From: a virus
Strand: one strand, 5' to 3'
DNA: 22,287 nt
Virus record (IMG/VR): IMGVR_UViG_3300009130_000155
Coordinates: 1-22,287 of that record
Shown: piece by piece, positions 4,526-20,867 of the stretch
How positions within the stretch are numbered: the first letter of the stretch is position 1
How the letters are laid out: each line of letters opens with the position of its first letter
Program-made: the position numbers and the translations under genes
Notes under the pieces: model-generated
The model's input: the letters and a program-made list of their open reading frames with translations, nothing else
The model's database searches: none
Told to the model about the DNA's origin: nothing

Positions 4526-4535
4526 TTTGCGTATA

Positions 4536-4541
4536 GTGTAT
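4536..4541 (+). promoter_or_regulatory. GTGTAT motif, candidate phage promoter, ahead of portal gene
   Basis: The 59-base gap between terminase and portal holds GCGTATAGTGTATTG (4529-4543). The GTGTAT core recurs in the gaps before 6736, 9846, 16522 and 19781. Here it ends 43 bases before the portal ATG. A promoter role is inferred from recurrence and position only. Confidence 0.4.
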
Positions 4542-4584
4542 TGTCAATCATATTAACAATACCATTATTCGGAGATCAATAGAA

Positions 4585-6684
4585 ATGACAGATGAAATCT
4601 CGCTTTATCGCACTTGGGACAGCGACTCACAAAGGCAGGAGGCATATGCTCAGACCTCAGACAACATCGACGCTTACGATGGTATTCAGAAATCAACTGC
4701 CTATTCTAGAAGAACGAGTTTTATAGATGTAGAATCTAACCGGTCTGTCAGAACATCTTTTCTTAGGTCTGACTACGATTCATTTCGACCGGGAGAGGCC
4801 GTTTCCCATAAGCAAAAAAGAATCATTAAACAATGTATGCAGGCTTATGATAAGGTTGGCATTATAAGAAATATTATTGATTTGATGGGGGATTTTGCAT
4901 CACAGGGACTTGTCTTAGTCCACCCAAACAAGACCATTGAGAAATTCTACAGAAAGTGGTGGAAAGAGGTTTCCGGGGTAGATAGATCGGAAAGATTTTT
5001 GAACTATCTATATAGAACCGGAAACGTTGTAGTGCGACGACAAACCGCCAGAATAAATAAACAGCAAGAAAAGAATCTGAGAAATTCCCTAGCGTCAGAC
5101 ATCAAGATAGAACCGCTCAAGGTGCTAAAAAGGGAGATACCTTGGTCTTATGATTTCCTGAACCCCCTCGCCGTGGACATTAAAAACACAGGATCTCAAA
5201 TTATTGGCAGACCTGAGTTTGTGTTAAATTTGTCTAAAAATAGCTATGAAACATTAGTCAAGACAGATAATACTCCAAACACAATTTTCAAGACTCTTCC
5301 AAAGGATATCCAGCAAAGGCTACAGAAGGGCGACAAGACAATACCCCTAGATCCAGAAAGCGTTCAGACATTTTACTACAAGAAAGACGATTGGCTCCTT
5401 TGGGCAAATCCAATGATTTACGCTATTCTTGACGATATTATCATGCTGGAGAAAATGAAACTGGCTGATATCGCGGCCTTGGATGGGGCTATTTCCAACG
5501 TTAGGCTCTGGACAGTCGGGGATTTGGATCACAAAATCATCCCAACAGCGGCGGCTATAAATAAACTCAGAGATATTCTCGCCAGCAACGTTGGCGGCGG
5601 TACAATGGATATGGTCTGGGGTCCAGAATTGAAGTTTACAGAGTCTCAATCTCAGGTTTACCGATTCTTAGGTGCTGAAAAATATCAGCCCGTCCTTACT
5701 AGTATCTACGCTGGACTCGGTATTCCCCCAACTCTCACTGGGGCTAGTACTGGGGGCGGCTACACAAACAACTACGTTTCTCTAAAAACCCTTATAGAAA
5801 GACTTGAGTACGGTAGAGAGGTTCTGTCTGAGTTTTGGAGACATGAGATTAAGATAGTACAAAAGGCTATGGGTTTCAGATTCCCTGCTGAAATTCACTT
5901 TGATTCTATTGTTTTGTCTGACGAGGCGGCCCAGAAGAAGCTACTTATGGATCTTGCTGATAGAGATATAATTTCGCAAGAAACACTTCTGGAAAGGTTT
6001 AGAGAAATTCCAAACATTGAAAGGGTTAGAGTGAGAAGAGAAGAGAGGGAAAGGGTCAACGATTCTGTTGCTCCTCAGAAAGCTGGCCCCTATCATAATC
6101 CACAGCATAAAAACGATATGGCAAAGATAGCCTTGACAAAGGATATTCTTGATTCTGAATACCTTGAGAATATAGGCGTTCCGTATACAGACCCTCCTGC
6201 GGACCCTGTTACTCAGCCATCTCCTCAAAAAGACGATGAAAACAAGCCGACTCAGGATGACGGTAGGCCAAAGTTTTCAAAGGATACCCAAAAAAGGAAG
6301 CAGAAAAGAGTGCTTCCCAAAAGTTCCGATTCTACCGCTAAGACGCTCTGGGCTATGGAGGCTCAAGCTAAGATTTCTGAGATAGTATCTCCTATTGCTT
6401 TATCTCATTTTAACAAAAAGAATGTCAGGAGCTTAAATAAGGCCGAGGTCGATCAACTAGAATACTTGAAGCTTTGTATACTCACGGGAATGACTCCTTT
6501 TATGGATGTTGATGAGAATATAATAAAGCAGTTAATAGATAGTAAAACCAAGCCTTCAAGCGAATTTCATGACTTGGCAAAAGTGAAAATAGACGCCTTT
6601 ACAAAGGCCAATAAGAGAAAGCCAAATACTTCTGAGACTAGATATATTTATTCGGCCACCTTTGGCGAAATGTCCAATTTTTAG
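4585..6684 (+). CDS. portal protein
   Basis: A 699-residue portal, the dodecameric ring at the capsid vertex through which DNA enters and leaves. Supporting features are position directly after the terminase, the N-terminal segment around GIIRNIIDLMGDFASQG, and the core IYAGLGIPPTLTG followed by a glycine-rich loop and the helix TLIERLEYGREVLSEFWRHE, a typical portal stem/clip arrangement. Residues around 535-570 are rich in proline and charge (for example DPPADPVTQPSPQKDDENKP) and look like a flexible linker to an extra C-terminal domain of about 120 residues of unknown function. The ATG at 4585 has GGAGA 9 bases upstream. Identity rests on pattern and synteny. Confidence 0.88.
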   Translation: MTDEISLYRTWDSDSQRQEAYAQTSDNIDAYDGIQKSTAYSRRTSFIDVESNRSVRTSFLRSDYDSFRPGEAVSHKQKRIIKQCMQAYDKVGIIRNIIDLMGDFASQGLVLVHPNKTIEKFYRKWWKEVSGVDRSERFLNYLYRTGNVVVRRQTARINKQQEKNLRNSLASDIKIEPLKVLKREIPWSYDFLNPLAVDIKNTGSQIIGRPEFVLNLSKNSYETLVKTDNTPNTIFKTLPKDIQQRLQKGDKTIPLDPESVQTFYYKKDDWLLWANPMIYAILDDIIMLEKMKLADIAALDGAISNVRLWTVGDLDHKIIPTAAAINKLRDILASNVGGGTMDMVWGPELKFTESQSQVYRFLGAEKYQPVLTSIYAGLGIPPTLTGASTGGGYTNNYVSLKTLIERLEYGREVLSEFWRHEIKIVQKAMGFRFPAEIHFDSIVLSDEAAQKKLLMDLADRDIISQETLLERFREIPNIERVRVRREERERVNDSVAPQKAGPYHNPQHKNDMAKIALTKDILDSEYLENIGVPYTDPPADPVTQPSPQKDDENKPTQDDGRPKFSKDTQKRKQKRVLPKSSDSTAKTLWAMEAQAKISEIVSPIALSHFNKKNVRSLNKAEVDQLEYLKLCILTGMTPFMDVDENIIKQLIDSKTKPSSEFHDLAKVKIDAFTKANKRKPNTSETRYIYSATFGEMSNF

Positions 6685-6711
6685 CAATAAAGTCTATTAT
6701 TCAAAAAATTT

Positions 6712-6717
6712 GTGTAT
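6712..6717 (+). promoter_or_regulatory. GTGTAT motif, candidate phage promoter, ahead of protease/scaffold gene
   Basis: TTTGTGTATTAG (6709-6720) stands in the 51-base gap after the portal gene; GTGTAT ends 18 bases before the ATG at 6736 and just ahead of GGAGG. The same spacing of 18-19 bases is seen before 9846 and 16522. No convincing -35 box is present. Confidence 0.45.
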
Positions 6718-6735
6718 TAGTTTTCGGAGGTATTT

Positions 6736-8214
6736 ATGAAAATATACGAAACAGAAATCAAAGATGGCTTAGTAGACCAACTGAACAACAATTCAGTTGC
6801 CTATTGCTCCGTAGCTACGGTGGTAGATACCCCCGTAAATCTACTGGATAATCCCTCTTCCTGTTTGCCCGCAGACCTAGAAACTTTAGGAGTTTCCAAG
6901 GCTTCGGATGAAGGCCAAATGGACTTATTCTATCTAAAGTCTATCTTAGTTAGCACTGGGTGGAATAAGAACGATGATGTCTTTGATCCTATTGAAACCT
7001 TTGCGGCCAGAAATACCCCCGAAGATAAACCATTTAACTATATGCACGATGAAAAGGACATAATCGGTCATATAACTGGAAATAGCATTGTAGATTTTGA
7101 GGGTAATGCCATCTCGGAAGAAGGTGTTCCCCCTGAGTTTAACATCCTGACTACCGCTGTCATTTACAAAGAGTGGAGCGATTTAGATCAAAGAGAAAGA
7201 ATACAAAAAATACTGGCCGAAATCGAAGAGGGTAAATGGTTCGTCTCTATGGAGTGCCTTTTCCCCAATTTTGATTATGCTCTAGTAGATAGTGAGGGCA
7301 AGACTAGGGTCGTAAATAGAAATGAAGCCTCTGCATTCCTTACTAAACATTTAAGATCTTATGGCGGAAGCGGACAATACGAAGACTACAAAGTTGGCAG
7401 ACTCTTACGAAACTTATCGTTCTCTGGTAAGGGCTTGGTTTCAAAGCCTGCTAATCCACGTAGCATTATACTGGAAGGAAATAGATTTTTTGATGAATCT
7501 GAGGCACAAATTTTAACTATATCTTCAATTAAGGAGAACTTAATGTCTGATAATCACGAAAAGCAAATCGCGGATTTGCAAGCAAAACTAGAGGAGGCTA
7601 AGGCCGCAAACGATGAACTTACCCAAAAGGTAGTTGCAGAAAAGGTTGCGGAATATGAGTCTTCGATTCAATCTCTGGAAGCTACTATTGCAGAAAACAC
7701 AGAGACTATCAAAACTCTTTCTGAAACAAATGAGTCATTGCTGGCTTCAAATAAGCAGCTTGAGTCAGAGGCGAAAGTCATGAAAGACGAGATGGAAGAA
7801 ATTAGAAAGAACGAGGCTATGATGAAGCGTCAGGCACAGCTTGAAGAAGTTGGATTCGGCGCAGAAGAAGCTGTCGCTACCGTTGAAGATTTTAGCCATC
7901 TTGACGATGAAACTTTCGACAAGCTCGTAGCTACCATGAAAGGTAAGAGCGGTAAAATGCCACCTTGGATGAAAAAAGACGACGAAAAGAAAGAAGAAAA
8001 AGAAAAAGATGCAAAGGCGCAAGAAGAGACCGAGGCACAGGAAGAACTAGATCCTGCGGAGGCTAGCGAGGAAGTCCTTGAGCAAGCCGAAAAGGTTGAG
8101 GAAGTCGCAATTGCGGAAATTAATGAACAAGAAGATCCAGCGGAATCTCTTCGCAGCGTAGCGAGTGAGTGGCTTGGTTCTGTTTTACAAACTTTGCCTA
8201 AACAAGACAAGTAA
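6736..8214 (+). CDS. prohead serine protease with C-terminal scaffold
   Basis: A 492-residue fusion. Residues about 1-250 look like the herpesvirus-assemblin/HK97-type prohead protease: His104 in FNYMHDEKDIIGHI, Ser171 in KWFVSMECLF (67 residues apart, close to the assemblin spacing), a candidate third residue His205 in LTKHL, and the closing motif FSGKGLVSKPANPRS seen in T4 gp21-like proteases. Residues about 270-370 form a long predicted coiled coil (EKQIADLQAKLEEAKAANDE onwards), and residues 400-475 are extremely glutamate-rich, as in capsid scaffolds. Translation starts at 6736 with GGAGG 5 bases before. An in-frame internal start at 7543 would release the scaffold alone (separate entry). 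It lies between portal and capsid genes, the standard place. Confidence 0.85.
   Translation: MKIYETEIKDGLVDQLNNNSVAYCSVATVVDTPVNLLDNPSSCLPADLETLGVSKASDEGQMDLFYLKSILVSTGWNKNDDVFDPIETFAARNTPEDKPFNYMHDEKDIIGHITGNSIVDFEGNAISEEGVPPEFNILTTAVIYKEWSDLDQRERIQKILAEIEEGKWFVSMECLFPNFDYALVDSEGKTRVVNRNEASAFLTKHLRSYGGSGQYEDYKVGRLLRNLSFSGKGLVSKPANPRSIILEGNRFFDESEAQILTISSIKENLMSDNHEKQIADLQAKLEEAKAANDELTQKVVAEKVAEYESSIQSLEATIAENTETIKTLSETNESLLASNKQLESEAKVMKDEMEEIRKNEAMMKRQAQLEEVGFGAEEAVATVEDFSHLDDETFDKLVATMKGKSGKMPPWMKKDDEKKEEKEKDAKAQEETEAQEELDPAEASEEVLEQAEKVEEVAIAEINEQEDPAESLRSVASEWLGSVLQTLPKQDK
7543..8214 (+). CDS. nested scaffold protein from in-frame internal start
   Basis: Within the protease gene, AAGGAG at 7531-7536 is followed 6 bases later by ATG at 7543, in the same frame (codon 270 of the long product). 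The resulting 223-residue protein begins MSDNHEKQIADLQ and holds the coiled coil and acidic tail but none of the protease. This is the same arrangement as phage lambda C/Nu3, where the scaffold is made separately from an internal start in the protease gene and in larger amounts. The ribosome binding site is at least as good as those of the neighbouring genes. The internal start is read directly; its use is inferred. Confidence 0.65.
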   Translation: MSDNHEKQIADLQAKLEEAKAANDELTQKVVAEKVAEYESSIQSLEATIAENTETIKTLSETNESLLASNKQLESEAKVMKDEMEEIRKNEAMMKRQAQLEEVGFGAEEAVATVEDFSHLDDETFDKLVATMKGKSGKMPPWMKKDDEKKEEKEKDAKAQEETEAQEELDPAEASEEVLEQAEKVEEVAIAEINEQEDPAESLRSVASEWLGSVLQTLPKQDK

Positions 8215-8233
8215 TCTATAAAGGAGATTCATA

Positions 8234-8725
8234 ATGGCTCTTAAAACTGATAGAAGTACGCTTCAAACAGACATTTCATTCTTCATGAATGAAGCCGCTA
8301 CGAGGGGCGGTGTTGTGGCTCTTAGCACTGGCGGATCTGGTGCTGCTATGGATCAGGGTTCTGCCTTGGTCACTTATGCCGCAATTCCTTCGGGAAAAGT
8401 TCCAGTTGGTCTTTTGCTTAACGATATGGTCAGTATCGACCTGACTCGTCAGCATTTGAATCAACATAAAGACGAAGTTCAAAAAGGCGGAAAGGTTACT
8501 CTTCTCCAAAAGGGTTATGTTGTAACCAGCAGCTTGGAAGGAACGAGTCCTGCTGCTGGAAACGCAGCTTTCTTGGGGCATAGTGGGAATCTTTCTACTA
8601 CAGACCTTTCAAATGACGATACTGACGCTGATGGTTCAACCAGAGTTGTTGGTAGGTTTTTGAGTGGTGTGGATGAGGACGGCTATGCTAAAGTATTTAT
8701 CGACCTTCCAAACACTAACGTATAA
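8234..8725 (+). CDS. capsid decoration/stabilisation-type protein
   Basis: A 163-residue protein rich in Gly, Ser, Thr and Val, with predicted beta structure and no Cys. It sits 19 bases after the protease/scaffold gene and 23 bases before the major capsid gene, with AAGGAG 7 bases before its ATG. That position, and segments such as VPVGLLLNDMVSIDL and VVGRFLSGVDEDGYAKVFID, fit small head-decoration or head-stabilising proteins coded just upstream of many capsid proteins. I recognise the type rather than a named family. It could instead be a minor head or head-fibre protein. Confidence 0.6.
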   Translation: MALKTDRSTLQTDISFFMNEAATRGGVVALSTGGSGAAMDQGSALVTYAAIPSGKVPVGLLLNDMVSIDLTRQHLNQHKDEVQKGGKVTLLQKGYVVTSSLEGTSPAAGNAAFLGHSGNLSTTDLSNDDTDADGSTRVVGRFLSGVDEDGYAKVFIDLPNTNV

Positions 8726-8748
8726 TAAAAACCAAAGGAGAACATAAC

Positions 8749-9753
8749 ATGTCTATTAAAAAAAGACCTACCGAAGAATTCATCGGTTTGCTTAAAAGGT
8801 CAGGTAGCGCTGATCGCGCCGTGGCTTTAGAAGCCCAAAGAGAAATTGCTAAAGCTCTTGAGACACCGCTCCGAGAGGGCGTTGTGTTTGGAGATGTGGT
8901 AACTTCGATCTATGAGGCTATGCCTCTTGAGCCGGGAGCAAGCCCAGAGTTTCCATTGGATCTCTTGGCACCCGGAACCGAGGGCGACCATATTGCCTAT
9001 ACAAATCCCGGAAACGGACGTATTCCTGAGCGTCACGTTGAAGGTGATTACGTCATGATTAACACTTATGGCATTTCGAGTTCGATTGACTTCTTGCTTA
9101 AATACGCAAGAGAGGCAAACTGGAATGTTGTTGGTCGTGCCATGCAAGTGCTTGAAGCTTCGTTTGTTAAGAAAATTAACGACGATGGTTGGCACACTCT
9201 TTTGGCTTCCGCCGTTGACCGTAACATCTTGGTGTATGATGCCGATGCTGCTGCTGGTCAGTTCACCAAGCGTCTTGTTAGTCTGATGAAGACTGTCATG
9301 CGCAGAAACGGTGGCGGAAACAGTGTTACTGCTCCGGGTAGCCTGAGTGACCTTTACCTGAGTCCAGAGGCCATCGAAGACATTCGTAACTGGGGCGTGG
9401 ATCAGCTTGATGAAGTTTCTCGACGAGAAATCTACACGGCTGCTGATAATGGCGGTCCTCTGACTCGAATCTTTGGTGTGAACCTTCATGACATTTTCGA
9501 GTTTGGTGATGGTCAAGAGTATCAGTCTTACTTCACTAGCGATCTTGGTGGATCTCTTGCTAGTTCTGACGTTGAGCTTGTTATTGGCCTTGACCAAGGC
9601 GCAAATGACAGCTTCGTGATGCCTATCAAGAAGAATGTTGAGATCTTTGAAGATCCGCAACTCCATAGATTTCAGCGTCAAGGTTACTATGGTTGGGCCG
9701 AAGTTGGGTTTGGCGTCCTTGATAACCGTAGAGTGTTGGCTGGCTCCTTCTAG
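8749..9753 (+). CDS. major capsid protein (HK97-fold type)
   Basis: A 334-residue protein placed after the protease, scaffold and decoration-type genes, with a strong AAGGAG site 9 bases before the ATG and a strong terminator right after it. The N-terminal helix region (residues 10-45, charged) could be the arm, and the C-terminal strand ending GWAEVGFGVLDNRRVLAGSF resembles the P-domain end of HK97-fold capsid proteins. By hand count, 14 of its 21 Arg codons are CGN, while the terminase uses CGN in only about 4 of about 42, a sign of selection for high expression. No large N-terminal delta domain is present, which fits the separate scaffold. Assignment is from context and pattern. Confidence 0.85.
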   Translation: MSIKKRPTEEFIGLLKRSGSADRAVALEAQREIAKALETPLREGVVFGDVVTSIYEAMPLEPGASPEFPLDLLAPGTEGDHIAYTNPGNGRIPERHVEGDYVMINTYGISSSIDFLLKYAREANWNVVGRAMQVLEASFVKKINDDGWHTLLASAVDRNILVYDADAAAGQFTKRLVSLMKTVMRRNGGGNSVTAPGSLSDLYLSPEAIEDIRNWGVDQLDEVSRREIYTAADNGGPLTRIFGVNLHDIFEFGDGQEYQSYFTSDLGGSLASSDVELVIGLDQGANDSFVMPIKKNVEIFEDPQLHRFQRQGYYGWAEVGFGVLDNRRVLAGSF

Positions 9754-9775
9754 GGGTAAAAGCCTGACAAAAAAT

Positions 9776-9804
9776 AAAGCCGTTCATTTTTGGGCGGCTT
9801 TTTT
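9776..9804 (+). terminator. rho-independent terminator after major capsid gene
   Basis: AAAGCCG (9776-9782) pairs with CGGCTTT (9795-9801) across a 12-base loop, and the right arm runs into a T tract (9799-9804). It starts 23 bases after the capsid stop codon. It is the only convincing intrinsic terminator in the window and divides the packaging/head block from the adhesin block. Confidence 0.85.
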
Positions 9805-9814
9805 ATTATACCTA

Positions 9815-9830
9815 GTGTATTGTGTATATA
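9815..9830 (+). promoter_or_regulatory. doubled GTGTAT motif, candidate promoter of adhesin block
   Basis: Two GTGTAT copies, 9815-9820 and 9822-9827, lie side by side in AGTGTATTGTGTATATA, immediately after the capsid terminator and ahead of the small gene at 9846. A fresh promoter is expected here because the terminator should stop upstream transcription. The second copy ends 18 bases before the ATG. Confidence 0.5.
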
Positions 9831-9845
9831 TCTTGGGGGTATATT

Positions 9846-10070
9846 ATGTTTTTTGGCTCTACTTCTTTTTCTGAAACTGCATTTTCTGACGATGGTCGCG
9901 TAAGAACAGATCCATACGGCGGGGGTGCTGTCGTTCTATATTTCAATAAAGAAGTTTTAACGTTTCCCCTTAGTATAAATAAACAGATAGATCATTCTTT
10001 AAACATAAACAAGCAGCAGGATCATGATTTAGAGATAAATAAGACAATTAATTTTAATGCAAGGAGATAA
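9846..10070 (+). CDS. small protein with INKQ-type 10-residue repeats
   Basis: A 74-residue protein. The ATG at 9846 is preferred over the one at 9822 because a G-rich ribosome-binding-like stretch (GGGGG) lies 6 bases before it, and the N-terminus then reads FFGSTSFSETAFSDDG, a kind of start seen in small structural proteins of aquatic phages. The C-terminal half holds three roughly 10-residue repeats: LSINKQIDHS, LNINKQQDHD and LEINKTINFN. Alternating polar and hydrophobic residues suggest beta strands, perhaps stacking as a short spike or an assembly tag. Function is unknown. It is the first gene after the capsid terminator. Confidence 0.7.
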   Translation: MFFGSTSFSETAFSDDGRVRTDPYGGGAVVLYFNKEVLTFPLSINKQIDHSLNINKQQDHDLEINKTINFNARR

Positions 10071-10072
10071 AG

Positions 10073-10363
10073 ATGGCGGTATTTTCGGTCAATATTTCTG
10101 ATAATGACGTTGGTAGAGTTATTACTGCTATGTGTGAAAACTATGGATATGAGGCAGAAGTTCCAAATCCCAGTTTCGACGCTTCAATACCGGTGGATGC
10201 GGTTACGAATCCTGAATCTATAGCAAATCCAGAAACCCAATCTCAATTTGCCAATAGAAAAACAAGAGATTTTTTAATGCAGAATACTGTGGCCTATGAG
10301 CTTAAAGTCGGGCGGGAGAGTGTTCAAAAGCCCACGCCACCAGACATTACAGATCCTAATTAG
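10073..10363 (+). CDS. hypothetical structural-region protein, 96 residues
   Basis: Starts 2 bases after the previous stop, with AAGGAG 7 bases before the ATG, inside the end of the upstream gene. The pattern VNISDNDVGRVITAMCENYGYEA, then NPETQSQFANRKTRDFLMQN and VAYELKVGRES, resembles a widespread small phage protein in which a short strand is followed by a helix for regulating an alpha-helical domain; members are often next to capsid or fibre genes, without an assigned role. The last ten residues are proline-rich. No membrane segment or catalytic motif is seen. Confidence 0.65.
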   Translation: MAVFSVNISDNDVGRVITAMCENYGYEAEVPNPSFDASIPVDAVTNPESIANPETQSQFANRKTRDFLMQNTVAYELKVGRESVQKPTPPDITDPN

Positions 10364-10392
10364 TAAAATATTTATAAGCGGAGGATGTCTTT

Positions 10393-13300: not shown

Positions 13301-15078
13301 CTTTGGTGGCTAGTTCCGGTATAGCTACTTATGCAAGCGGTCAAGCGATTGAAAATGAGGGTATTGCAACTTACGCTTCGGGGCAGGCGATATCTAATCA
13401 AGGCAATATAACAGCCTTGAACACCGCCTCTGGAATTGCTACTTCACTGTTGGCTGTATCCGGTACTGCTACTTCGCTAGTCGCTAGCTCTGGCATAGCT
13501 ACCTACGCAAGCGGTCAGGCAATTGCTAATGAAAGTGATATTGTCGCCACTTCTGGAATAGCGAATTACGCTTCTGGTCAAGCGATATCAAATCAAGGCA
13601 ATATTACTGCGCTGAATACTGCTTCTGGTATTGCTACTTCTCTACTTAGTGTTTCTGGAACGGCTACTTCGCTAGTCGCTACTTCTGGTATAGCGTCATA
13701 CGCATCCGGTAATACGGTTAACATTAGCTTTGGATCAAATGTAGAGGGGGATATTCTCTATCATAACGGAACCAGTTTCACAAGATTGGCTAAGGGTACT
13801 GATGACTATATCTTGAAGATGAACGGCAATGTTCCCAACTGGGAAGCGGAGAGCGCCGGATCAAGCTTGACCGCTGGTAGTGGTATAAATGTAGATGGCG
13901 CAGATAAAATAAATATCTACGGCGGAACTGGTAATCTACAAGAAATCCAGCTTACCTCTGATAACATTTTTGTTCCGAAGATTGTATTTACCGGCTCTGG
14001 GGTTGAGGATACTCCTATAACTCTTAAAGTTCTATCTAGTCACGCCAGCGCAACCGGCTCTGGAACGGCTCTTTCTTTCGAGGGTACACAGGGGCAGTTG
14101 TTCACTATTACAGATAATCTCTCCACCGGTAATATTTTTAGCGTTAATGATATTACGGGACTTCCTCTTATCGCTGCCGATGCCAGCGGAGATGTTAGAA
14201 TAGGACAGTACGGAAGATATGTTGGCGTTGGTACTGGTGTTCCTCTTTATGGTCTTGATGTTTCGTCTTCGGGACAATTCCAAAAGGGTTTTGTACTATC
14301 TAGTTATGTACCCGCCGTAACTACAAATACTTTATACAATGATGGTGGAACTCTTAAATTTAATGGTTCTGCCGTTGGTGGCGGTGGCGCTAGCGCGGAG
14401 GCGCAGTACGCTTCTGGTCAGGCTACATCTTTAAACACCGCTTCTGGTATAGCTACATCTTTGCTTGCGGTTTCTGGAACTGCTACTTCGTTAATAGCAA
14501 CTTCTGGAATTGCAACTTACGCCAGTGGTCAAGTAAATGTTTCGGCGGCGGGAACCGTGACAGCCTCTAAGGCTTTGATTCTAGATTCTGCGAAAAGTTT
14601 CACAGGGGCTAAACATGGTGTGTTTAATCAGTTTGATTCTAGGGTGACCGCCAGCGGTGTGACCATCGGGGCATCCGGTATAACGTTAACAGGTGGAGCT
14701 TATGTTCAAGAAGCTGTACCAGCAAACGATACGCCAACAACCGAAGATGCGACGATTACTATAGATCTAAGCACTGGAAATTATCATAATGTTGTATTGG
14801 GTAACAATGTAACAAAGTTTGAATTTATAAACGCTAAAAGGGGCCAAAGATTTTTATTACGTATAACGCAACATGCTGCATCTGCAAAGACTGTTGCTTG
14901 GACTAATGTTGATTACACTACGGGTGGTGCTGCGGCGACAGTGAGATGGGCCGGTGGAGGAACCGCTCCCACTATGTCTACCTCAACTTCACATACAGAT
15001 GTTTATGGTTTCCTCTGCACAAACGATGCTGGAAGCGCTTTTGATGGATTCGTAGTTGGTCAAAACCTACCTGACTAG
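10393..15078 (+). CDS. large repetitive fibre/adhesin protein, 1561 residues
   Basis: The largest gene of the window. Domain order: an N-terminal region (1-110) of the type KIGDRVRENTSTTGVSG that probably attaches to the virion; a roll of about ten IGYxAG-like repeats at about 182-356, like the heads of YadA-type trimeric adhesins; a mixed segment; then a shaft (about 505-1160) built of polyglycine hinges, DVTTAQLNYVSG units and 36-residue SGIA/SGTA units; a beta segment (1160-1345); another partial unit; and a C-terminal domain (about 1443-1561) with STGNYHNVVLGNNVTKFEF and ending DGFVVGQNLPD, a terminal domain frequent in fibres of aquatic phages. It is presumably a homotrimer for host binding. 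GGAGG precedes the ATG by 8 bases. Whether it sits on the tail, neck or head is undecided. Confidence 0.85.
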   Translation: MALKIGDRVRENTSTTGVSGLSLTGSPAGFQKFSDVLSSGDITYYTLEENDKWEVGIGTYGSNNLLRTTILSSSNSGSKISLGGSGVVFITYPADKALYKNEDSQAVIGASGIIFSDNTILKASKLVELNDVSLSGTPSQSTVVDLNITNKSLSIGDMTGPTNSNNVLIGYGAGSGITTGNNSVIIGAESSTINKTGQHNVHIGAKAGPIISDASTVVYSSVAVGYSAGNKMRHESTAIGYKAALHSYEIGFVSIGYQAGSGVGSYSTSVGYEAATSLSEDYSVAIGYRAGYNGGGESSIWIGQTAGQSSTGSTKSIGIGKNAGKSSSGDECIYIGEGAGTSNSTNSLVFIGNSTPATNGTLIKGDMDAKRVAIGAADVTLDDTLFIGVDSANDEGIVVKGAVSQASNLTSWKNSSDDILASVDKNGIIAGHGISATGNGIQIASLTPASTSNKLYNVAGTLYFNGSQLASAGASAEASYASGQAIANESDIVAVSGIAAYASGVGGGGGGDVTTAQLNYVSGVATYSSGVLTGGTPTFDDMYVKEYIYHNGDTNTYIKLKTDEILFAAGGRTLLTLEEASNDKVIINEGGNDVNFRVESNNEENLLFTDGANDKVGIGTSSPSYLLDVAGMAQTTGAIVGNSGIVLANNTPSVTTNTLYNDGGTLKFNGSTVGGGDVTTAQLNYVSGIAVYSSGQAISNQSNITALNTASGIATSLLAVSGTATSLISSSGIADYASGQAIANEGDIVAVSGIAAYASGVSLTVKEADGNPNVSNVRTIVVSNGTLTDDGTGQVTITTGGGGGGDVTTAQLNYVSGVAVYSSGQAISNQSNITALNTASGIATSLLSVSGTATSLVASSGIATYASGNTANITFGSNVEGDILYHNGTSFTRLAKGSDDYILKMNGNVPNWEAESGGGGDVTTAQLNYVSGIAVYSSGQAITNQSNITALNTASGIATSLLAVSGTATSLVASSGIATYASGQAIENEGIATYASGQAISNQGNITALNTASGIATSLLAVSGTATSLVASSGIATYASGQAIANESDIVATSGIANYASGQAISNQGNITALNTASGIATSLLSVSGTATSLVATSGIASYASGNTVNISFGSNVEGDILYHNGTSFTRLAKGTDDYILKMNGNVPNWEAESAGSSLTAGSGINVDGADKINIYGGTGNLQEIQLTSDNIFVPKIVFTGSGVEDTPITLKVLSSHASATGSGTALSFEGTQGQLFTITDNLSTGNIFSVNDITGLPLIAADASGDVRIGQYGRYVGVGTGVPLYGLDVSSSGQFQKGFVLSSYVPAVTTNTLYNDGGTLKFNGSAVGGGGASAEAQYASGQATSLNTASGIATSLLAVSGTATSLIATSGIATYASGQVNVSAAGTVTASKALILDSAKSFTGAKHGVFNQFDSRVTASGVTIGASGITLTGGAYVQEAVPANDTPTTEDATITIDLSTGNYHNVVLGNNVTKFEFINAKRGQRFLLRITQHAASAKTVAWTNVDYTTGGAAATVRWAGGGTAPTMSTSTSHTDVYGFLCTNDAGSAFDGFVVGQNLPD
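10938..11460 (+). repeat. YadA-head-like beta-roll repeats in fibre
   Basis: About ten degenerate units of 14-22 residues with the core (V/I)xIGxxAG occur in a row, for example AVGYSAGNK, AIGYKAALH, SIGYQAGSG, SVGYEAATS, AIGYRAGYN, WIGQTAGQS, GIGKNAGKS and YIGEGAGTS. The regular spacing matches the left-handed parallel beta-roll of trimeric autotransporter heads. The structural call is inferred from the pattern. Confidence 0.65.
11908..11925 (+). repeat. (GGT)5GGA polyglycine hinge
   Basis: Five GGT codons and one GGA code six glycines just before a DVTTAQLNYVSG unit. Shorter glycine runs precede the other three copies of that unit (near 12412, 12790 and 13141), so glycine hinges appear to separate the shaft segments. 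The triplet tract could change in length by slippage without loss of frame. Confidence 0.75.
12502..13710 (+). repeat. 36-residue SGIA/SGTA shaft repeats of fibre
   Basis: Five 108-base copies lie at 12502-12609, 12889-12996, 13234-13341, 13408-13515 and 13603-13710; a shorter sixth is at 14425-14529. Each reads ITALNTASGIATSLL, then (A/S)VSGTATSL, then a variable (V/I)-(A/S)-(S/T)-SGIA and YASG. Within a unit the SGxA motif recurs about every 10 residues. Two copies (the second and fifth) are followed by a 40-residue NVEGDILYHNGTSFTRLAKG segment (13021-13140 and 13735-13854). The copies are nearly identical in protein but differ strongly in synonymous bases. Confidence 0.9.
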
Positions 15079-15086
15079 GATATAAA

Positions 15087-15506
15087 ATGGCGACAACAAC
15101 TTTTACAAATGCTACAGACTACGGTCCCGATGATGATCTAAATAGTTCTGTTACAATTAGTGGTATTACTGTTTCCGAAGTCACTAATATGAGGTTTGAG
15201 ATAGACTGGAATCCAGATGGGGATTTTTGCGGCGGTGACGCTCAAGGGGGCGAGTGTGTAATCTATGACCCGGATGACAATTATTTTCAAATGTTTGGTG
15301 CTTATAGTCAATCTGGGGGAGAGGCTAGAACTACCACCTATGATAAAACTAGTTCTTTTCCTTCGGGGCTTAATGGGGCTTGGAGATTTAATTTACAAGA
15401 TTACGACATGACTGGATGTTTTCAGATTACCGAAACTAGAATAATAGTAACGTATACCCCAGCAACCACTACCACGAACGCGCCCTTTTTAATGTTTGTT
15501 GATTAA
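15087..15506 (+). CDS. beta-rich virion-associated protein, 139 residues
   Basis: Starts 8 bases after the fibre gene. The composition (many Thr, Ser, Gly, Asp and aromatics, few Lys) and alternating strands suggest a beta sandwich; the order of strands, acidic loop (DPDDNYFQMFG) and a GAWRFNLQDYDMTG segment recalls proprotein-convertase P-like or carbohydrate-binding sandwiches, but I cannot assign a family. Three cysteines are present, two within the loop CGGDAQGGEC. The C-terminus has a Thr-rich stretch (TPATTTTNAP). Position next to the fibre and before a lectin-like gene suggests an accessory adhesin or a partner that sits on the fibre. Confidence 0.6.
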   Translation: MATTTFTNATDYGPDDDLNSSVTISGITVSEVTNMRFEIDWNPDGDFCGGDAQGGECVIYDPDDNYFQMFGAYSQSGGEARTTTYDKTSSFPSGLNGAWRFNLQDYDMTGCFQITETRIIVTYTPATTTTNAPFLMFVD

Positions 15507-15524
15507 TTTACAGAAAGTAGGAAT

Positions 15525-15785
15525 ATGGCACATAGTAATTTCGATGATAGGCATTATGTTATAATTTCAGTTGATGATATTGGAATTATAGACTTTAGTC
15601 AGGTTATGCAGACTTCTGCCGATACGGTCAGGAAGAGTTTAGATGAAACCTTGACATTTGTTAAGTACGAACACGAAATGCCCTCTAGTGTTACTTCCTG
15701 CCCTAGTAAAAGTCAGGAGTATTCTCATTCTGAGATTCTTGAGATTCTTGCTACTGCCGCTTGGACCCCAGAGGAGACTCCATAA
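15525..15785 (+). CDS. conserved-type phage protein near fibre genes, 86 residues
   Basis: A small acidic protein with the pattern ISVDDIGIIDFSQVMQTSAD, then TLTFVKYEHEMPSSV and a closing helix SHSEILEILATAAWTP. Proteins of this type recur beside tail-fibre genes of aquatic phages, without known function; my recognition is from pattern only. AGGA lies about 5 bases before the ATG, and its stop codon shares one base with the start of the LamG-like gene (TAATG), so the two are probably translationally coupled. An assembly factor for the neighbouring adhesins is one possibility. Confidence 0.65.
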   Translation: MAHSNFDDRHYVIISVDDIGIIDFSQVMQTSADTVRKSLDETLTFVKYEHEMPSSVTSCPSKSQEYSHSEILEILATAAWTPEETP

Positions 15786-16462
15786 TGGCTACACATCCAG
15801 TAAATGCAGCATACAATGCCAGTATAAAAACTACAGGTCTGGTTTTCTGTATGGACGCTGCCTCTAAGATGTATGGCGAGAATGCCGAAGATATGACAGG
15901 ATCTCATACTACATCTTTAGTAAATGGTGCCGCGTTTACAAATAATCAATATGGAAGCATAGAGTTTGACGGGACCGATGATTATATTTCTACGGATTTT
16001 GCCGGTACTGAGCTTTCTGGTAGTGAGCTTTCTCTTGATTTTTGGATTAATGCAGATGTAAGAAATAGCTCATATGGGATCTTTGCCATTAATGGGAGTG
16101 ATGGTTTAGAGTTTAGAATGAATGGGCTAAGATATTATTTTTTCACAAGGTGGAATGCTAACCTACAGACAGGGACTTATCCAACGCCACTCTTAAATAC
16201 TTGGATGAATCTTATATGTGTAAAAAAATCAAATCGTATGGAGATCTATCTAAATGGAACCCTAGATTCTTCTAAAAGCGTTACCAATACTAGCCCTAAT
16301 TTTAGCGCTAATAATGCCATAATCGGGGCTAGGGGAAACTCTGCTAGTCCAGCCGCCGCGTATTGGAACGGTGAAATTTCTGTGGTTAGGGTCTACAATC
16401 AGGCCATGTCTGCATGGGAAGTTTCTCAAAATTACAACGCTACCGCTAGGAGGTACGCATAA
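15785..16462 (+). CDS. LamG/concanavalin A-like lectin-fold protein
   Basis: A 225-residue protein; the ATG at 15785 overlaps the upstream stop by one base and is preferred to a TTG at 15761. The LamG-type jelly roll is visible: YGSIEFDGTDDYIST (first strands), LSLDFWINAD, a mid segment with NTWMNLICVKK and MEIYLNGTLD, and the closing AYWNGEISVVRVYNQAMS, followed by AWEVSQNYNATARRYA, the usual end of such phage and bacterial lectin domains. These folds bind glycans in many proteins, so a host-surface or capsule-binding role is likely. There is no signal peptide. It is the last gene before a gap containing a candidate promoter. Confidence 0.85.
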   Translation: MATHPVNAAYNASIKTTGLVFCMDAASKMYGENAEDMTGSHTTSLVNGAAFTNNQYGSIEFDGTDDYISTDFAGTELSGSELSLDFWINADVRNSSYGIFAINGSDGLEFRMNGLRYYFFTRWNANLQTGTYPTPLLNTWMNLICVKKSNRMEIYLNGTLDSSKSVTNTSPNFSANNAIIGARGNSASPAAAYWNGEISVVRVYNQAMSAWEVSQNYNATARRYA

Positions 16463-16496
16463 TTATCATTATTTTGATACGGAACACTCCTTAACT

Positions 16497-16507
16497 GTGT
16501 ATAAATA
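16497..16507 (+). promoter_or_regulatory. GTGTATAAATA, candidate late promoter
   Basis: In the 59-base gap before 16522, GTGTAT (16497-16502) continues into AAATA, so that TATAAATA at 16500-16507 is an exact match to the T4 late promoter consensus. GGAGG follows at 16511-16515. If transcription began about 6 bases after the box, as in T4, the leader would be extremely short, which argues for caution. Confidence 0.45.
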
Positions 16508-16521
16508 TATGGAGGTATATT

Positions 16522-16848
16522 ATGGCATTCGTAGAAGAGGCGCACGTTAATGACATAGGCACAGTATTTAGGATTACGGTTTATGACACTTCGTCTACCG
16601 GAACTACTTCTGTAGCCGATATTAGCAGCGCGACAACCAAAAAGTTTACATTTAAAAAGCCTGATGGCACCACTTTCGAGAGGGTTGCCGTCTTTACTAG
16701 CGATGGCTCTGATGGTCAAATTCAATATTTGACTGTGGATGGTGATCTTTCCGGTCCCGGAACTTGGCATTTACAGGCTTATGTTGTCACATCAGATGGA
16801 ACATGGAATACTAGCGTGGGATATTTTAAAGTTAACGAAAACCTATAG
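16522..16848 (+). CDS. Ig-like/baseplate-upper-protein-type domain protein
   Basis: A 108-residue single beta-sandwich domain. The pattern HVNDIGTVFRITVYD, then ADISSATTKKFTFKKPDGTT, FTSDGSDGQIQYLT, and GPGTWHLQAYVVTSDGTW, resembles the N-terminal domain of BppU-type baseplate proteins and related small phage proteins, which act as platforms or adaptors for receptor-binding fibres. The ATG follows GGAGG by 6 bases. It begins a gene block that runs without large gaps through the neck genes to 19712. Whether it serves the fibre module upstream or the neck downstream cannot be told. Confidence 0.7.
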   Translation: MAFVEEAHVNDIGTVFRITVYDTSSTGTTSVADISSATTKKFTFKKPDGTTFERVAVFTSDGSDGQIQYLTVDGDLSGPGTWHLQAYVVTSDGTWNTSVGYFKVNENL

Positions 16849-16855
16849 GTGATTT

Positions 16856-17356
16856 ATGTCTTGGAAGGTAGATTTAGTTGTAATGCTTAGATCTCTAATC
16901 GGAGACCTAGATCATGCAAAATATACAGACGAAAGATTAAAGCAGGTAATAGTTGTGGGCGCTTATGGCGTCTTGAGCGATGCTGATTTTAGTAATGATT
17001 ATGTGGTGAGTGTTTCTTCTCTTTCTATTTCCCCAGACCCAATAACCGAAAAAGATGCGGATTTTTCCATACTGAGCGTTTATAAGTCTGCCTGTATCTT
17101 ATTAGGAAGTGAAGTTAAAACAGAGTCGGCCAATGCCATATCAATTAAAGATGGCCCATCTGCCATTGATCTAAGGGGCGTTACTCAGAATTTAACAATT
17201 TTGTACAATGATATATGTAAAAAATACGATCAGTTACTTAAAGCTTATCAATATAACAATACCCTTGTTGGTCAGGCAGTACTCGGACCGTATAGCCCCG
17301 GAAGTTCGGTCTTGAGGTCTAATGGGCTTGATTATCGTAGTAATATATTCGACTAG
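16856..17356 (+). CDS. head-tail connector-like protein
   Basis: A 166-residue, mostly helical N-terminal protein (VDLVVMLRSLIGDLDHAKYT, then DERLKQVIVVGAYGVLSDAD) with a middle segment ISPDPITEKDADFSILSVYK and a C-terminal tail rich in Ser, Gly and Asn. The helix-then-YTDERL start and the pattern of an internal SIKDGPSAIDLRG loop fit gp6-like head-tail connectors (adaptors under the portal), which have this length. Position at the start of the neck cluster supports this. Family assignment is tentative. Confidence 0.6.
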   Translation: MSWKVDLVVMLRSLIGDLDHAKYTDERLKQVIVVGAYGVLSDADFSNDYVVSVSSLSISPDPITEKDADFSILSVYKSACILLGSEVKTESANAISIKDGPSAIDLRGVTQNLTILYNDICKKYDQLLKAYQYNNTLVGQAVLGPYSPGSSVLRSNGLDYRSNIFD

Positions 17357-17365
17357 GAGAAAAAA

Positions 17366-17623
17366 ATGGCAGTTACTCAAAAAATAGTTAGCGGCAACGA
17401 ACAACCCCAAGGTGGGGAGGGGATTGTCAGTATTGCTGGGGCCAGAGGTTTGGCCGCAGCGGATAAGCTCGGAGCAAATAACACAGTTAGTCCGTTTCCA
17501 CCGCTTCTGACGACTCAAATAGATCAATCTATTTCTGTTATAAATTCAAGGATGGATGGCAGATATAGCATTGTTCAGGCTTACCAGCCAAATAGTCCGT
17601 CTGGAGTCGCAGTTAGCCCGTAG
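17366..17623 (+). CDS. hypothetical protein, 85 residues
   Basis: I do not recognise it. AGGAG stands 7 bases before the ATG, and 9 bases separate it from the next gene's ATG, so it is clearly part of the neck gene cluster. The first half is glycine- and alanine-rich and looks extended; the second half contains a segment that may be helical (TTQIDQSISVINSRMDGRYS) and a Pro/Ser-rich tail. No cysteine, membrane segment or catalytic motif is visible. A small structural or assembly protein is likely from position only. Confidence 0.7.
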   Translation: MAVTQKIVSGNEQPQGGEGIVSIAGARGLAAADKLGANNTVSPFPPLLTTQIDQSISVINSRMDGRYSIVQAYQPNSPSGVAVSP

Positions 17624-17632
17624 GAGACTTAA

Positions 17633-18142
17633 ATGGCGATTAACATACCCGCTAGCGTGTTCGATACATATAATGAAGCCGTCTTGTTATTTACAAGAAC
17701 TGGTACTTTAGTGTATCCAGAGAAAAGAGAACAGTGTCCGAATTGCTACATGGACACAATGGGTACTCGAAATAGGTCTATAAGTAAGTATAGAACTGGC
17801 GGTCCCTATCCATTTGAAAGAGGGATGCCGTGTCCCTACTGCAATGGGAAGGGGTACAAAGCGGTAGAGACGACGGAGGATATCACTCTTAGAATTTACT
17901 GGAATAGAAAGTTTTGGGTTGATGTTGGTATTCCTATAGATATTCCTGATGGCTCTATTCAGACCATATCATACATGACAGATCTGGAGAAAATAAACAA
18001 AGCTAAATACATGATCCCAAATTATGACGGAATAGAAAAATACGATCAGGGTAGATACGAAAGGACAGGCATATCTTACCCGCAAGGATTTAAACAAAAT
18101 ACAACTAAATATGTTGTTACGTTTTGGAGCAGGAGTGAATAG
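17633..18142 (+). CDS. zinc-ribbon-like neck-region protein
   Basis: A 169-residue protein with two CxxC knuckles: CPNC near residue 37 and CPYCNGKGY near residue 68. Together they form a probable four-cysteine zinc site, the second knuckle resembling the CxxCxGxG of DnaJ. The core TLRIYWNRKFW, then IPDGSIQTISYMTDLEKINK, and ending YPQGFKQNTTKYVVTFWSR, is a pattern I associate with proteins coded between connector and tail genes in aquatic phages. A head-closure or stopper role is inferred. Its stop codon shares one base with the GTG start of the next gene (TAGTG). Confidence 0.65.
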   Translation: MAINIPASVFDTYNEAVLLFTRTGTLVYPEKREQCPNCYMDTMGTRNRSISKYRTGGPYPFERGMPCPYCNGKGYKAVETTEDITLRIYWNRKFWVDVGIPIDIPDGSIQTISYMTDLEKINKAKYMIPNYDGIEKYDQGRYERTGISYPQGFKQNTTKYVVTFWSRSE

Positions 18143-18753
18143 TGAGAATAGTTACAAGCAACGCCAGAATGCGGGCCTTGATAAACAAAGCCTTGGCTAG
18201 AGAGGGCGATCAGATATTAAAAACTTCTGCTTCTAACATAAGAAGAGAAGTAAAAGAAGTCATTAGAGCGGCTATTGCCACCTGTCCAGAAATACAGGAG
18301 CTTTCTAGCGGGATCTTAAAACTTGATTTTGGTCTGACGGAAGATCCTTCAACCGCCATAGTTAATTCTGTTGCAAATTCTACGAGGGTTTCTATTTCAA
18401 AAATAACCTCTAGGGGCGGTAGCTTTAAGGGCGGTATTAAAATAACTGTTCAACCGTCCAGTTTTTCTAATCTTCTTTCTCTATCTGTAGCGGAGCAGGT
18501 TATAGAATCTGGGGGGTCTATACCTTGGCTTAGGTGGCTATTGACTGCTGGAGATGCGATTATTATTGGCGATTTTGGCGTTCATTATGAGCTTGGAGCA
18601 GGTAGAACTGGCGGCGCTAGAATGGATGAGAAGATTGGCCCATTTAAGGTCAACCCTTTATTTTCTGGTGATGAGCAGGATAATTTCATAACGAGGGCAA
18701 TTGATCCAACCCTAAGAAAAATCTCCGCAATAGTAAGAAGGGAGCTTTCATAA
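18142..18753 (+). CDS. tail-completion/neck-type protein, GTG start
   Basis: A 203-residue protein starting at a GTG that is supported by AGGAG 6 bases before it and the 1-base overlap with the previous stop. It is mixed alpha/beta: N-terminal helices (LINKALAREGDQILKTSASN), a beta middle part, then IPWLRWLLTAGDAIIIGDF and a conserved-looking VHYELGAGRTGGARM followed by FSGDEQDNFITRAIDPTLRK. Its size, place before the tube gene and final helix fit HK97 gp10-like or tail-terminator-like neck proteins, but I cannot choose among them. The stop overlaps the next ATG by one base. Confidence 0.55.
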   Translation: MRIVTSNARMRALINKALAREGDQILKTSASNIRREVKEVIRAAIATCPEIQELSSGILKLDFGLTEDPSTAIVNSVANSTRVSISKITSRGGSFKGGIKITVQPSSFSNLLSLSVAEQVIESGGSIPWLRWLLTAGDAIIIGDFGVHYELGAGRTGGARMDEKIGPFKVNPLFSGDEQDNFITRAIDPTLRKISAIVRRELS

Positions 18754-19712
18754 TGGTAGGTGGACCCCATACAAAATTATCAAATCTTTCAAATGCCCAA
18801 GATGCGACCCTTTCTAATATTTTGTTAGATAATTTTATCGCTTTCTATGACTGGGGATTTTTGGATCGTGGTTCTTTCTATAGTATTCAGATACCCCAAT
18901 CTGGCATTTATGGCGGGGATAGGCACAAGCTGAGAAGTGCTGATGACCCAAATTATACAGATGGTCAGGTCTGGGAGGGGTATCGTCAGAATTGGGTATG
19001 GGAAAGCGGCATAGACGCCACTACAGAGCAGCCAATTGCGATATCTGGGGTTTTTGTAGACAGCACCTTTTACGCCACCGGAAACGTTAGCAAGCCATTT
19101 TACATAGACTATCCAAACGGGAGAGTCGTTTTTGATACGGCCATAGCCACGACCAGCACCGTTCAGTTAGAATATAGTCATAAATGGGTTCAGGTTATTC
19201 CCGCAGAAGGCGTTTCTTGGTTCCGTCAAATTCAGCAGAGATCCTTTAGAAACGAAGAGGGTTTTCAGGTTTCGTCCTCTGGGGGCTGGGCGCAACTTGG
19301 TGAAACTAGAGTCCAACTTCCCGCTATAGCTGTAGAAGTTATTCCTGCCAGAAGTATGGAGGGCTTTCAGTTGGGCGGTGGTCAGTGGGTCAATAATGAT
19401 GTCATTTTCCACATAATTACAGAAAATCATTGGGAATGCAATAATTTGATGGATGCCACGCTTTATCAAAATGAAAGAACAATTCACCTATTTGACCCCA
19501 CTACCGTAGGTCTTTCTGGGGCTTATCCATTCAATTACAGGAATGAATTAAATGAACATGCTTTGTCCAGCGGTCTTTATCCTAAGCTTATTGATAATTT
19601 TTACTATAGAAAATGCTGGATTAATAGTTCAAGAGCGCAGGATGTAGTACAGTTGACACCAGATCTGTACATAGGTAGTACTCGCTGCAAAACACAGGTA
19701 AAAGCCATATAA
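18753..19712 (+). CDS. virion structural protein, 319 residues (neck/tail region)
   Basis: Large mostly-beta protein with many aromatic residues (for example DWGFLDRGSFYSIQIPQSG and YRQNWVWESG). A strand-rich middle (FYIDYPNGRVVFDTAIATTS, then VQLEYSHKWVQVIPAE) is reminiscent of structural proteins coded just before the tail tube in aquatic phages. No enzymatic motif is visible. It closes the coupled neck block, starting within the previous stop codon. It may be a tail-terminator ring or tail-associated protein. The four cysteines are in the C-terminal half. Confidence 0.55.
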   Translation: MVGGPHTKLSNLSNAQDATLSNILLDNFIAFYDWGFLDRGSFYSIQIPQSGIYGGDRHKLRSADDPNYTDGQVWEGYRQNWVWESGIDATTEQPIAISGVFVDSTFYATGNVSKPFYIDYPNGRVVFDTAIATTSTVQLEYSHKWVQVIPAEGVSWFRQIQQRSFRNEEGFQVSSSGGWAQLGETRVQLPAIAVEVIPARSMEGFQLGGGQWVNNDVIFHIITENHWECNNLMDATLYQNERTIHLFDPTTVGLSGAYPFNYRNELNEHALSSGLYPKLIDNFYYRKCWINSSRAQDVVQLTPDLYIGSTRCKTQVKAI

Positions 19713-19723
19713 TCTAAAATTTT

Positions 19724-19735
19724 GTGTATATAATA
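19724..19735 (+). promoter_or_regulatory. GTGTATATAATA, candidate promoter of tail tube gene
   Basis: In the 68-base gap before the tube gene, TTTTGTGTATATAATAAC contains the recurrent GTGTAT (19724-19729) fused to a good bacterial -10-like TATAAT. GTGTAT ends 51 bases before the ATG, so the transcript would have a leader of ordinary length. A GGGAGA ribosome binding site precedes the ATG. Confidence 0.5.
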
Positions 19736-19780
19736 ACAGCCTTACCAGAGGACTATAAAGAAAACAAGGGAGACTAAACA

Positions 19781-20803
19781 ATGGCCCGTAATCAAAGAAT
19801 ATTTTATGCTTGCCAAGCTGTAGCCATCATGGGCAGGGGCGCAACCCCAACTGCTGCCGGTGTTGTGAAGGGCTTGCAAAGCGTTGGAATGAGTTCAACA
19901 TTTACCCTAGACCAAGTTTTTGAGATGGGGCAAATTGAGATTTATGAAAATGTCGAGGAAGTTGCCGATATTGAGGTGACTCTCGAAAAAGTTATCGACG
20001 GTGAAAAGCTTATCTATACGCTAGCCTCGAATGGTACATGTAGAACAGACGTTGTTACTGCGACTAAAGAAAGATGTGATGTCTATGTTGCTGTGTTTGA
20101 CGATGGTCTGTCACATGCGACGGGTGTTCCAAGAAACGTTTGTTTCAACTCTGGAATGTTCACAAGTTCCGTTGCTTATAATTATAGCGTGGACGGAAGC
20201 GCTACTGAGTCGGTCACCCTCGTTGGTAATGATAGATTCTGGAATGCTAATACTGCCGGTGTGATTGGAGCATCTCCAACAGCCCAGTGGACAGCTAATT
20301 CCAACATTACTGCCGCATTTACCGGTAGCGATACCGCAGTTTCGGGGGTTGCTCGCAGGGTCAATGTAGATATCGCTGGTTCAACACTTCCTGCCACGAT
20401 TCTGTCGCAGGGTGGTGATGATAGCTCAAGCGAGGCTGGCATCAGTTCTAACGCTCATATTCAAAGTATTGCTGTAAGTACTGACTTTGGACAAGAGAAT
20501 ATTCAAGAACTTGGTAGATTCGGCCCATATACCAGATACGCTACTTTCCCCGTGGAAGTTACCTGTGACTTTGAAGTTATGGCGACCTCTGGTGACCTGA
20601 TTAACGTTTCTGGTGCTGCTCCGAACTTGTCAAATAATACCATTATTATTAAAGACACTTGTGGAACAGTTCTTAACCTTGGAACTCAGAACAAGCTTTC
20701 TTCGGTTTCGTATTCCGGTGGCGACACTGGTGGAGGAAACTCGACAGTGAGCTACTCGTTCTCTAACTTTAATGTTCTCACTGTGCATGACAGCACAGCG
20801 TAA
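19781..20803 (+). CDS. tail tube (major tail) protein
   Basis: A 340-residue protein with the tube signature in residues 30-85: VGMSSTFTLDQVFEMGQIEI followed by an acidic strand with VADIEVTLEKVIDGEKLIY, as in tube proteins whose conserved strands pair between subunits. It is about twice the length of simple tube proteins; the excess, around residues 140-230, is Ser/Thr/Gly-rich and probably a surface insertion. The strong ribosome site, a private candidate promoter and the hairpin after the stop fit an abundant product. No sheath gene stands before it, suggesting a non-contractile tail. Five or more cysteines are spread through the sequence. Confidence 0.72.
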   Translation: MARNQRIFYACQAVAIMGRGATPTAAGVVKGLQSVGMSSTFTLDQVFEMGQIEIYENVEEVADIEVTLEKVIDGEKLIYTLASNGTCRTDVVTATKERCDVYVAVFDDGLSHATGVPRNVCFNSGMFTSSVAYNYSVDGSATESVTLVGNDRFWNANTAGVIGASPTAQWTANSNITAAFTGSDTAVSGVARRVNVDIAGSTLPATILSQGGDDSSSEAGISSNAHIQSIAVSTDFGQENIQELGRFGPYTRYATFPVEVTCDFEVMATSGDLINVSGAAPNLSNNTIIIKDTCGTVLNLGTQNKLSSVSYSGGDTGGGNSTVSYSFSNFNVLTVHDSTA

Positions 20804-20817
20804 TTCATTCTGCGATA

Positions 20818-20846
20818 GCCTCGCTCTCCCGGACCTAGGGCGAGGC
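20818..20846 (+). other. GC-rich hairpin after tail tube gene
   Basis: GCCTCGC (20818-20824) is the exact inverted complement of GCGAGGC (20840-20846); a wobble and two further pairs can extend the stem to about 10 bp over a 9-base loop. No T tract follows, so it is not a standard intrinsic terminator. It could be a weak terminator, an RNA end-protecting stem, or a processing site. Confidence 0.6.
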
Positions 20847-20867
20847 AAGTAGAACTAGGAAATTTGG

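Follow-up and report, generated by a model that had tools for sequence, protein, structure and literature searches.

A conserved GTGTAT element as a candidate single-element late promoter in a marine tailed-phage family known from metagenomes

Gene content and motif copies of the window

The IMG/VR virus record IMGVR_UViG_3300009130_000155, taken here as a whole (22,287 bases; the window), is a tailed-phage fragment encoding a GDP-mannose dehydratase, an ERCC4-type nuclease, a head maturation protease, a terminase and structural proteins, with every gene on the + strand. Six long gaps, of 59, 51, 92, 59, 68 and 64 bases, precede the genes starting at 4585, 6736, 9846, 16522, 19781 and 20868, respectively. 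The subject of this analysis is the hexamer GTGTAT, which recurs in five of the six, always in gene direction (+ strand copies starting at 4536, 6712, 9815, 9822, 16497 and 19724), exactly where a first-pass annotation of the window had placed it.

The first candidate late promoter element (4533–4544, GTGTAT at 4536–4541) lies before a 699-residue structural gene in a portal-like position (4585–6684), and the second (6706–6720, GTGTAT at 6712–6717, with the T-rich run GTGTATTAG) before gene 6736–8214. Upstream of gene 9846–10070 the candidate element is doubled (9812–9830, GTGTAT at 9815–9820 and 9822–9827), its downstream copy occupying the position kept in relatives. The site before gene 16522–16848 (16494–16507, GTGTAT at 16497–16502) reads GTGTATAAATA and includes, at 16500–16507, the exact T4-type word TATAAATA reported in the first pass. 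The last candidate (19718–19733, GTGTAT at 19724–19729, TTTTGTGTATATAA) precedes the gene for a 340-residue structural protein (19781–20803). All five are on the + strand, and in three gaps the motif indeed ends 18, 18 and 19 bases 5' of the ATG.

Coding copies on the + strand number five (844, 3635, 9232, 11385 and 17711), as the first pass had counted, and the − strand carries two. Over both strands the window holds 13 copies against 9.4 expected; without enrichment in the whole window, the signal resides in gap position. The earlier estimate was about 0.1 chance copies in the gaps; our value is 0.14 across all gaps, where six are seen. Allowing for the choice of the best of 4,096 words, 0.18% of 5,000 dinucleotide shuffles place some 6-mer in five of the six long gaps, and 1.6% place one in five of all gaps. 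The window is suggestive by itself; it is the relatives, compared at the sequence level below, that make the signal conclusive.

Several neighbouring features accompany these sites. An intrinsic terminator (9776–9801, + strand; an 11-bp stem followed by a T tract) ends the major-head-protein unit directly upstream of the doubled element, and a hairpin with a T tract is visible at this position in most of the relatives listed. The long gap lacking the motif (20804–20867, + strand) contains a G+C-rich 10-bp stem and no promoter element; the stem is strong (−23 kcal/mol) and has no T tract. In the leader of the 340-residue tail-tube-like gene (19733–19752), a block like GCCTTTACCAGAGGA follows the candidate promoter and is kept in relatives, its folding in the window sequence being no better than that of shuffles. 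At the left end, the GDP-mannose 4,6-dehydratase gene (1–900, + strand; Pfam PF16363, E 7.9e-87) has its 5' end truncated by the start of the record. The terminase open reading frame (ORF; 2498–4525) was probably given too early a start in the first reading, as alignments of relatives begin at residues 18–22.

Conservation, shape and orientation in relatives

Hundreds of relatives in IMG/VR were found by terminase and major head protein, with records reaching 145 kb. Among cultured phages, neither megablast of the window nor tblastn of the capsid and 699-residue proteins gave a match; the terminase shares about 25% identity with those of Bacillus phages Slash and Staley and their relatives. 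One 6.2-kb contig, assigned by binning to a Thalassolituus metagenome-assembled genome, is the sole match in a bacterial genome and too weak for naming a host. An Rfam scan of the window gave no match.

We compared the 100 bases upstream of orthologues of the window genes, removing sequences more than 85% alike. GTGTAT is present in 118 of the 139 non-redundant regions upstream of the five genes, against 19 of 393 for the twenty other window genes. Gene by gene, it occurs in 35/43 regions before 4585, 42/50 before 6736 (GTGTA in 50/50), 27/27 before 9846, 7/12 before 16522 and 7/7 before 19781, with GTGTATATA invariant among the last. The gap before 20868 has it in none of five relatives, as in the window. 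Five of the 19 control-gene copies belong to gene 16856, and some relatives carry the motif immediately 5' of a gene resembling the 16856 orthologue. Protein identities in the ortholog sets go down to about 30%, so the GTGTAT footprint is old. An exact 16-mer, TTTTTTGTGTATTATG, occurs at 91 loci; 45 are in this phage family, and at 43 an orthologous gene starts no more than 80 nucleotides away. Another 46 loci carry the 16-mer without a window protein; in the five of these that we examined, we found no sigma factor, one or two TGTGTAT on the motif strand and a single marginal protein match (E 0.019).

Aligned on GTGTAT, which is itself invariant by site selection, 113 non-redundant sites carry T at −1 in 96% and T at −2 in 80%; the T-rich run extends as far as −6, and the base following the word is A or T. 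The consensus, TTTTGTGTATAnT or alternatively TTTTGTGTATA, has no −35 box: TTGACA, scored as five of six bases at −35 spacing, appears in 1 of 113 sites (4 in shuffles), bearing out the first-pass remark that none is shared, and down to −14 the pooled sites have no conserved upstream block except the T-run.

Orientation is strongly biased. Across ten records, 79 intergenic copies point toward the downstream gene and 13 away. A weight matrix derived from the sites and run over eight records gave 51 intergenic hits oriented with the gene and 1 against it, besides 18 inside coding DNA. In the large relative G001, TGTGTAT occupies 8 of 14 + strand gaps against 3 of 56 − strand gaps; the corresponding counts in another, G002, are 6 of 20 and 2 of 53. 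Behind the sites in large relatives lie the 699-residue portal-like gene and the next structural gene, head–tail proteins, the 340-residue tail-tube-like gene, tape-measure-like proteins (2,565–3,950 residues where complete), tail-fibre-like proteins and a sigma-factor operon, the structural names being based on size, order and mutual sequence likeness and not on family hits. At these late genes the distance from motif to start codon ranges from about 21 to 95 bases and depends on the gene, being mostly 21–30 before 6736 and 9846, 43–72 before 4585 and 51–68 before 19781; GTGTAT is therefore not a translation signal.

On the opposite strand of G001 and G002, genes have promoters of host type, TTGACA-CGATA-TATAAT. 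Among 29 intergenic TATAAT sites in the − strand gaps of these two records, 13 have a five-of-six match to TTGACA, and in 15 the spacer contains CGATA, a block that is perhaps a phage-specific early element. A sigma-70 scan of the window returned 48 matches, about equal to the 42.4 in shuffles. G002 (L167–L171) also encodes DNA polymerase III alpha, ribonucleotide reductase, Thy1, UvdE, many glycosyltransferases and three DUF1501 proteins.

A linked sigma factor and the reading of the element

A Sigma70_r2 protein scores above the Pfam cut-off in 11 of 12 large records. Its late-module copy, of about 172 residues, is found in 58 loci of relatives, in most of them separated from an upstream GTGTAT site by a single small ORF. 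The operon runs GTGTAT, an ORF of 61–99 residues, the sigma, then a gene with a helix-turn-helix (HTH)-like start; in the close relative L019, a 61-residue ORF, a 172-residue sigma and a 265-residue HTH/D5-like gene stand directly before the dehydratase gene that opens the window. The gene following the sigma in G002 weakly matches the T5 D5-type regulator family (phrog_323, E 2e-4). The small ORF has no Pfam match, and neither the late sigma nor the next gene has a detectable relative among cultured phages.

Region 2 of the late sigmas is recognized by Pfam at E values of 6e-6 to 1e-8; region 4, scanned in four of them, gave no Pfam match at E ≤ 1. The N-terminal 77 residues form a sigma-domain-2 fold, superimposing on the −10-bound domain of 3ugo (rmsd 2.4, Z 8.6), and a Foldseek search with the C-terminal 73 residues, a model of middling confidence, found no sigma-4 fold. 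An apparent match of the C-terminal half to region 4 of large sigmas (VIA-align rows, rmsd 7–9) was rejected, as the C-terminal model alone lacks such a fold.

GTGTAT is in all likelihood a conserved promoter element, late by the content of the genes behind it. We consider it probable that GTGTAT lies at the heart of a single-element late promoter and that host core RNA polymerase reads this promoter when carrying the ~172-residue phage sigma. The element would be TTTTGTGTAT(A/T)(A/T)T; TTGTGTATA would be an enlarged −10 recognized by sigma region 2, which would also melt the A/T-rich DNA after it, and a −35 box would be dispensable because this sigma has no recognizable region 4. Starts are predicted some 6–8 bp beyond the element, so that leaders would be only about 10–12 nucleotides long where the motif ends 18–19 bases before the ATG. 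Ordinary host sigma-70 promoters would serve the early genes of the other strand. The position of the sigma gene behind its own GTGTAT in most relatives suggests positive feedback after the first sigma has been made. Binding of the sigma to the element, the start positions and the late timing are steps that we infer.

The motif, its conservation, orientation and gene context can be read from the sequences themselves, as can the sigma gene and its linkage. A late promoter, as first proposed, is the predicted function that gains support: the element is conserved, orientation-specific, placed in gaps before structural genes and free of a −35 box. The first-pass annotation had named either a phage sigma factor or a phage-altered host polymerase as its reader; the former is favoured, as these phages encode a member of the sigma-70 family within that gene cluster, and a search of relatives for an RNA polymerase beta' domain gave nothing above the Pfam cut-off. 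A single-element late promoter used by host core polymerase with the phage sigma is the simplest account, covering motif, orientation, gene classes, absent −35 box and linked sigma together.

Several points weigh against this account. The sigma gene lies outside the window, whose start comes about 1 kb too late to include it by the L019 gene order. Three types of sigma-operon upstream region have no GTGTAT, and some relatives carry the variants GTGTAA, GTGTAG or GTGTAC. Some records also encode, on the opposite strand, a second sigma that does have region 4 (PF04545 was found at E 9e-11 in a protein set including it), and pairing the element with the late-module sigma in preference to this one leans on linkage and single-element architecture; the term late is likewise taken solely from structural-gene content. 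The weight-matrix scan reuses its own training sites, and genes of nine large relatives were called with our own simple caller.

A feature at odds with this account is found at the sigma operon itself, where in 9 of 17 non-redundant relatives GTGTAT stands exactly 17 bp before a TATAAT-like box (for example L165 of G002, ~5699–5727), the spacer being fixed in length and not conserved in sequence. A host promoter ahead of this operon would be natural for the first synthesis of sigma, but would leave the fixed GTGTAT distance unaccounted for. There is some chance, though we would not favour it, that GTGTAT has two roles depending on its setting: at late genes it would be an enlarged −10, and at the sigma operon it would act like a −35 element, with TATAAT following at 17 bp. 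If so, it would be a built-in switch linking the host-polymerase stage to the phage-sigma stage.

Four other explanations fare less well. T4 late promoters, TATAAATA, are read with gp55, gp33 and the gp45 clamp (PMC2988020, PMC7892883) and are −10-only with A/T-rich DNA downstream (PMC2988020). A true T4-type system here, in which a gp55 homologue, gp33 and a sliding clamp read a diverged TATAAATA box, is improbable. It would fit the exact word before gene 16522, the −10-only architecture, the small ORF preceding the sigma gene, a profile comparison of the sigma with eight gp55 proteins (hhalign E 4.7e-5, probability 68%) and the rank of gp55 in the T4 open complex (27th in Foldseek for the sigma). 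However, TATAAATA is present in one of six window sites, the conserved part being GTGTAT with variable bases after it; the sigma matches phrog_1740, the family of phiEco32 gp36, better than the gp55 family phrog_234 (E 0.028); and G002 encodes DNA polymerase III alpha.

Still less probable is that host sigma-70 alone reads GTGTAT as an extended −10 promoter, with no phage factor. The extended −10 rule is TGnTATAAT. TATAAT-like bases do follow some sites (for example GTGTATTATAAT in G001 at 60874), but the pooled consensus puts TGTG directly before TAT, the wrong register for such an element, and the TTGACA/TATAAT promoters of the other strand indicate the usual host consensus, yet the late sites have no −35 box.

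We regard it as very unlikely that GTGTAT is an activator or repressor site, or an RNA-processing or translation signal, and not a promoter core. The 17-bp spacing to the TATAAT-like box ahead of the sigma operon is where an activator site or a −35 box would sit; at late genes, however, the variable distance to the start codon speaks against a translation signal, and where the motif ends about 18–20 bases before the ATG, a −10 box 17 bp further on would overlap the start codon and leave no mRNA leader. Chance or compositional bias of A/T-rich gaps, although GTGTAT is at chance level across the whole window, is of negligible probability given the shuffle test, the strand bias and the conservation in diverged relatives, the last of which refutes it.

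A single-element promoter with a linked sigma would allow early transcription (host sigma-70) and late transcription (phage sigma) to be mapped in a large phage family known only from metagenomes, and the sigma/promoter pair is testable in vitro without phage or host. Among the papers that a search on GTGTAT as a phage promoter listed, none was relevant.

Comparison with known phage promoters

The closest parallel is phiEco32 (Kuravirus), whose middle and late promoters, tAATGTAtA, are read by the phage sigma gp36, which lacks region 4, use no −35 box and start 6–8 bp downstream (PMC8948821). Common to both, on the reading proposed here, are a single element without a −35 box and the core TGTATA, a phage-encoded sigma, apparently without region 4 in the present phages too, and early genes on the opposite strand under host sigma-70. 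A host promoter has been predicted for the phiEco32 sigma gene. Two of the late sigmas match phrog_1740 (E 1.6e-6 and 2.3e-8), which gp36 matches at E 1.9e-45. There are also differences: the consensus here is TTTTGTGTATA and not tAATGTAtA, with TGTATA alone in common; the two sigmas have no BLASTP similarity, and hhalign is insignificant; the present phages are unrelated and larger (records to 145 kb); and their sigma gene belongs to the late module, with its own copy of the element ahead of it, in contrast to the middle gene 36 of phiEco32.

T4 offers a looser analogy, with −10-only late promoters, a short specificity factor of the sigma-70 family and an A/T-rich melting region in common. 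The consensus here is distinct, with two conserved G, the sigma is marginally similar to gp55 profiles, and the terminase is nearest to those of Bacillus and Microcystis phages, not T4; no clamp dependence is known here, the gp45 clamp and gp33 not having been searched for.

In phage 7-11, late promoters of the form GTAAtg-(16)-aCTA are read by the sigma gp47 (PMC8948821). There too a phage sigma steers host polymerase to late genes, but through a bipartite promoter and with a region 4, in contrast to the single element proposed here. If the pairing holds, it would extend the short list of single-element sigma promoters by a new specificity, and it could find use as an orthogonal expression pair.

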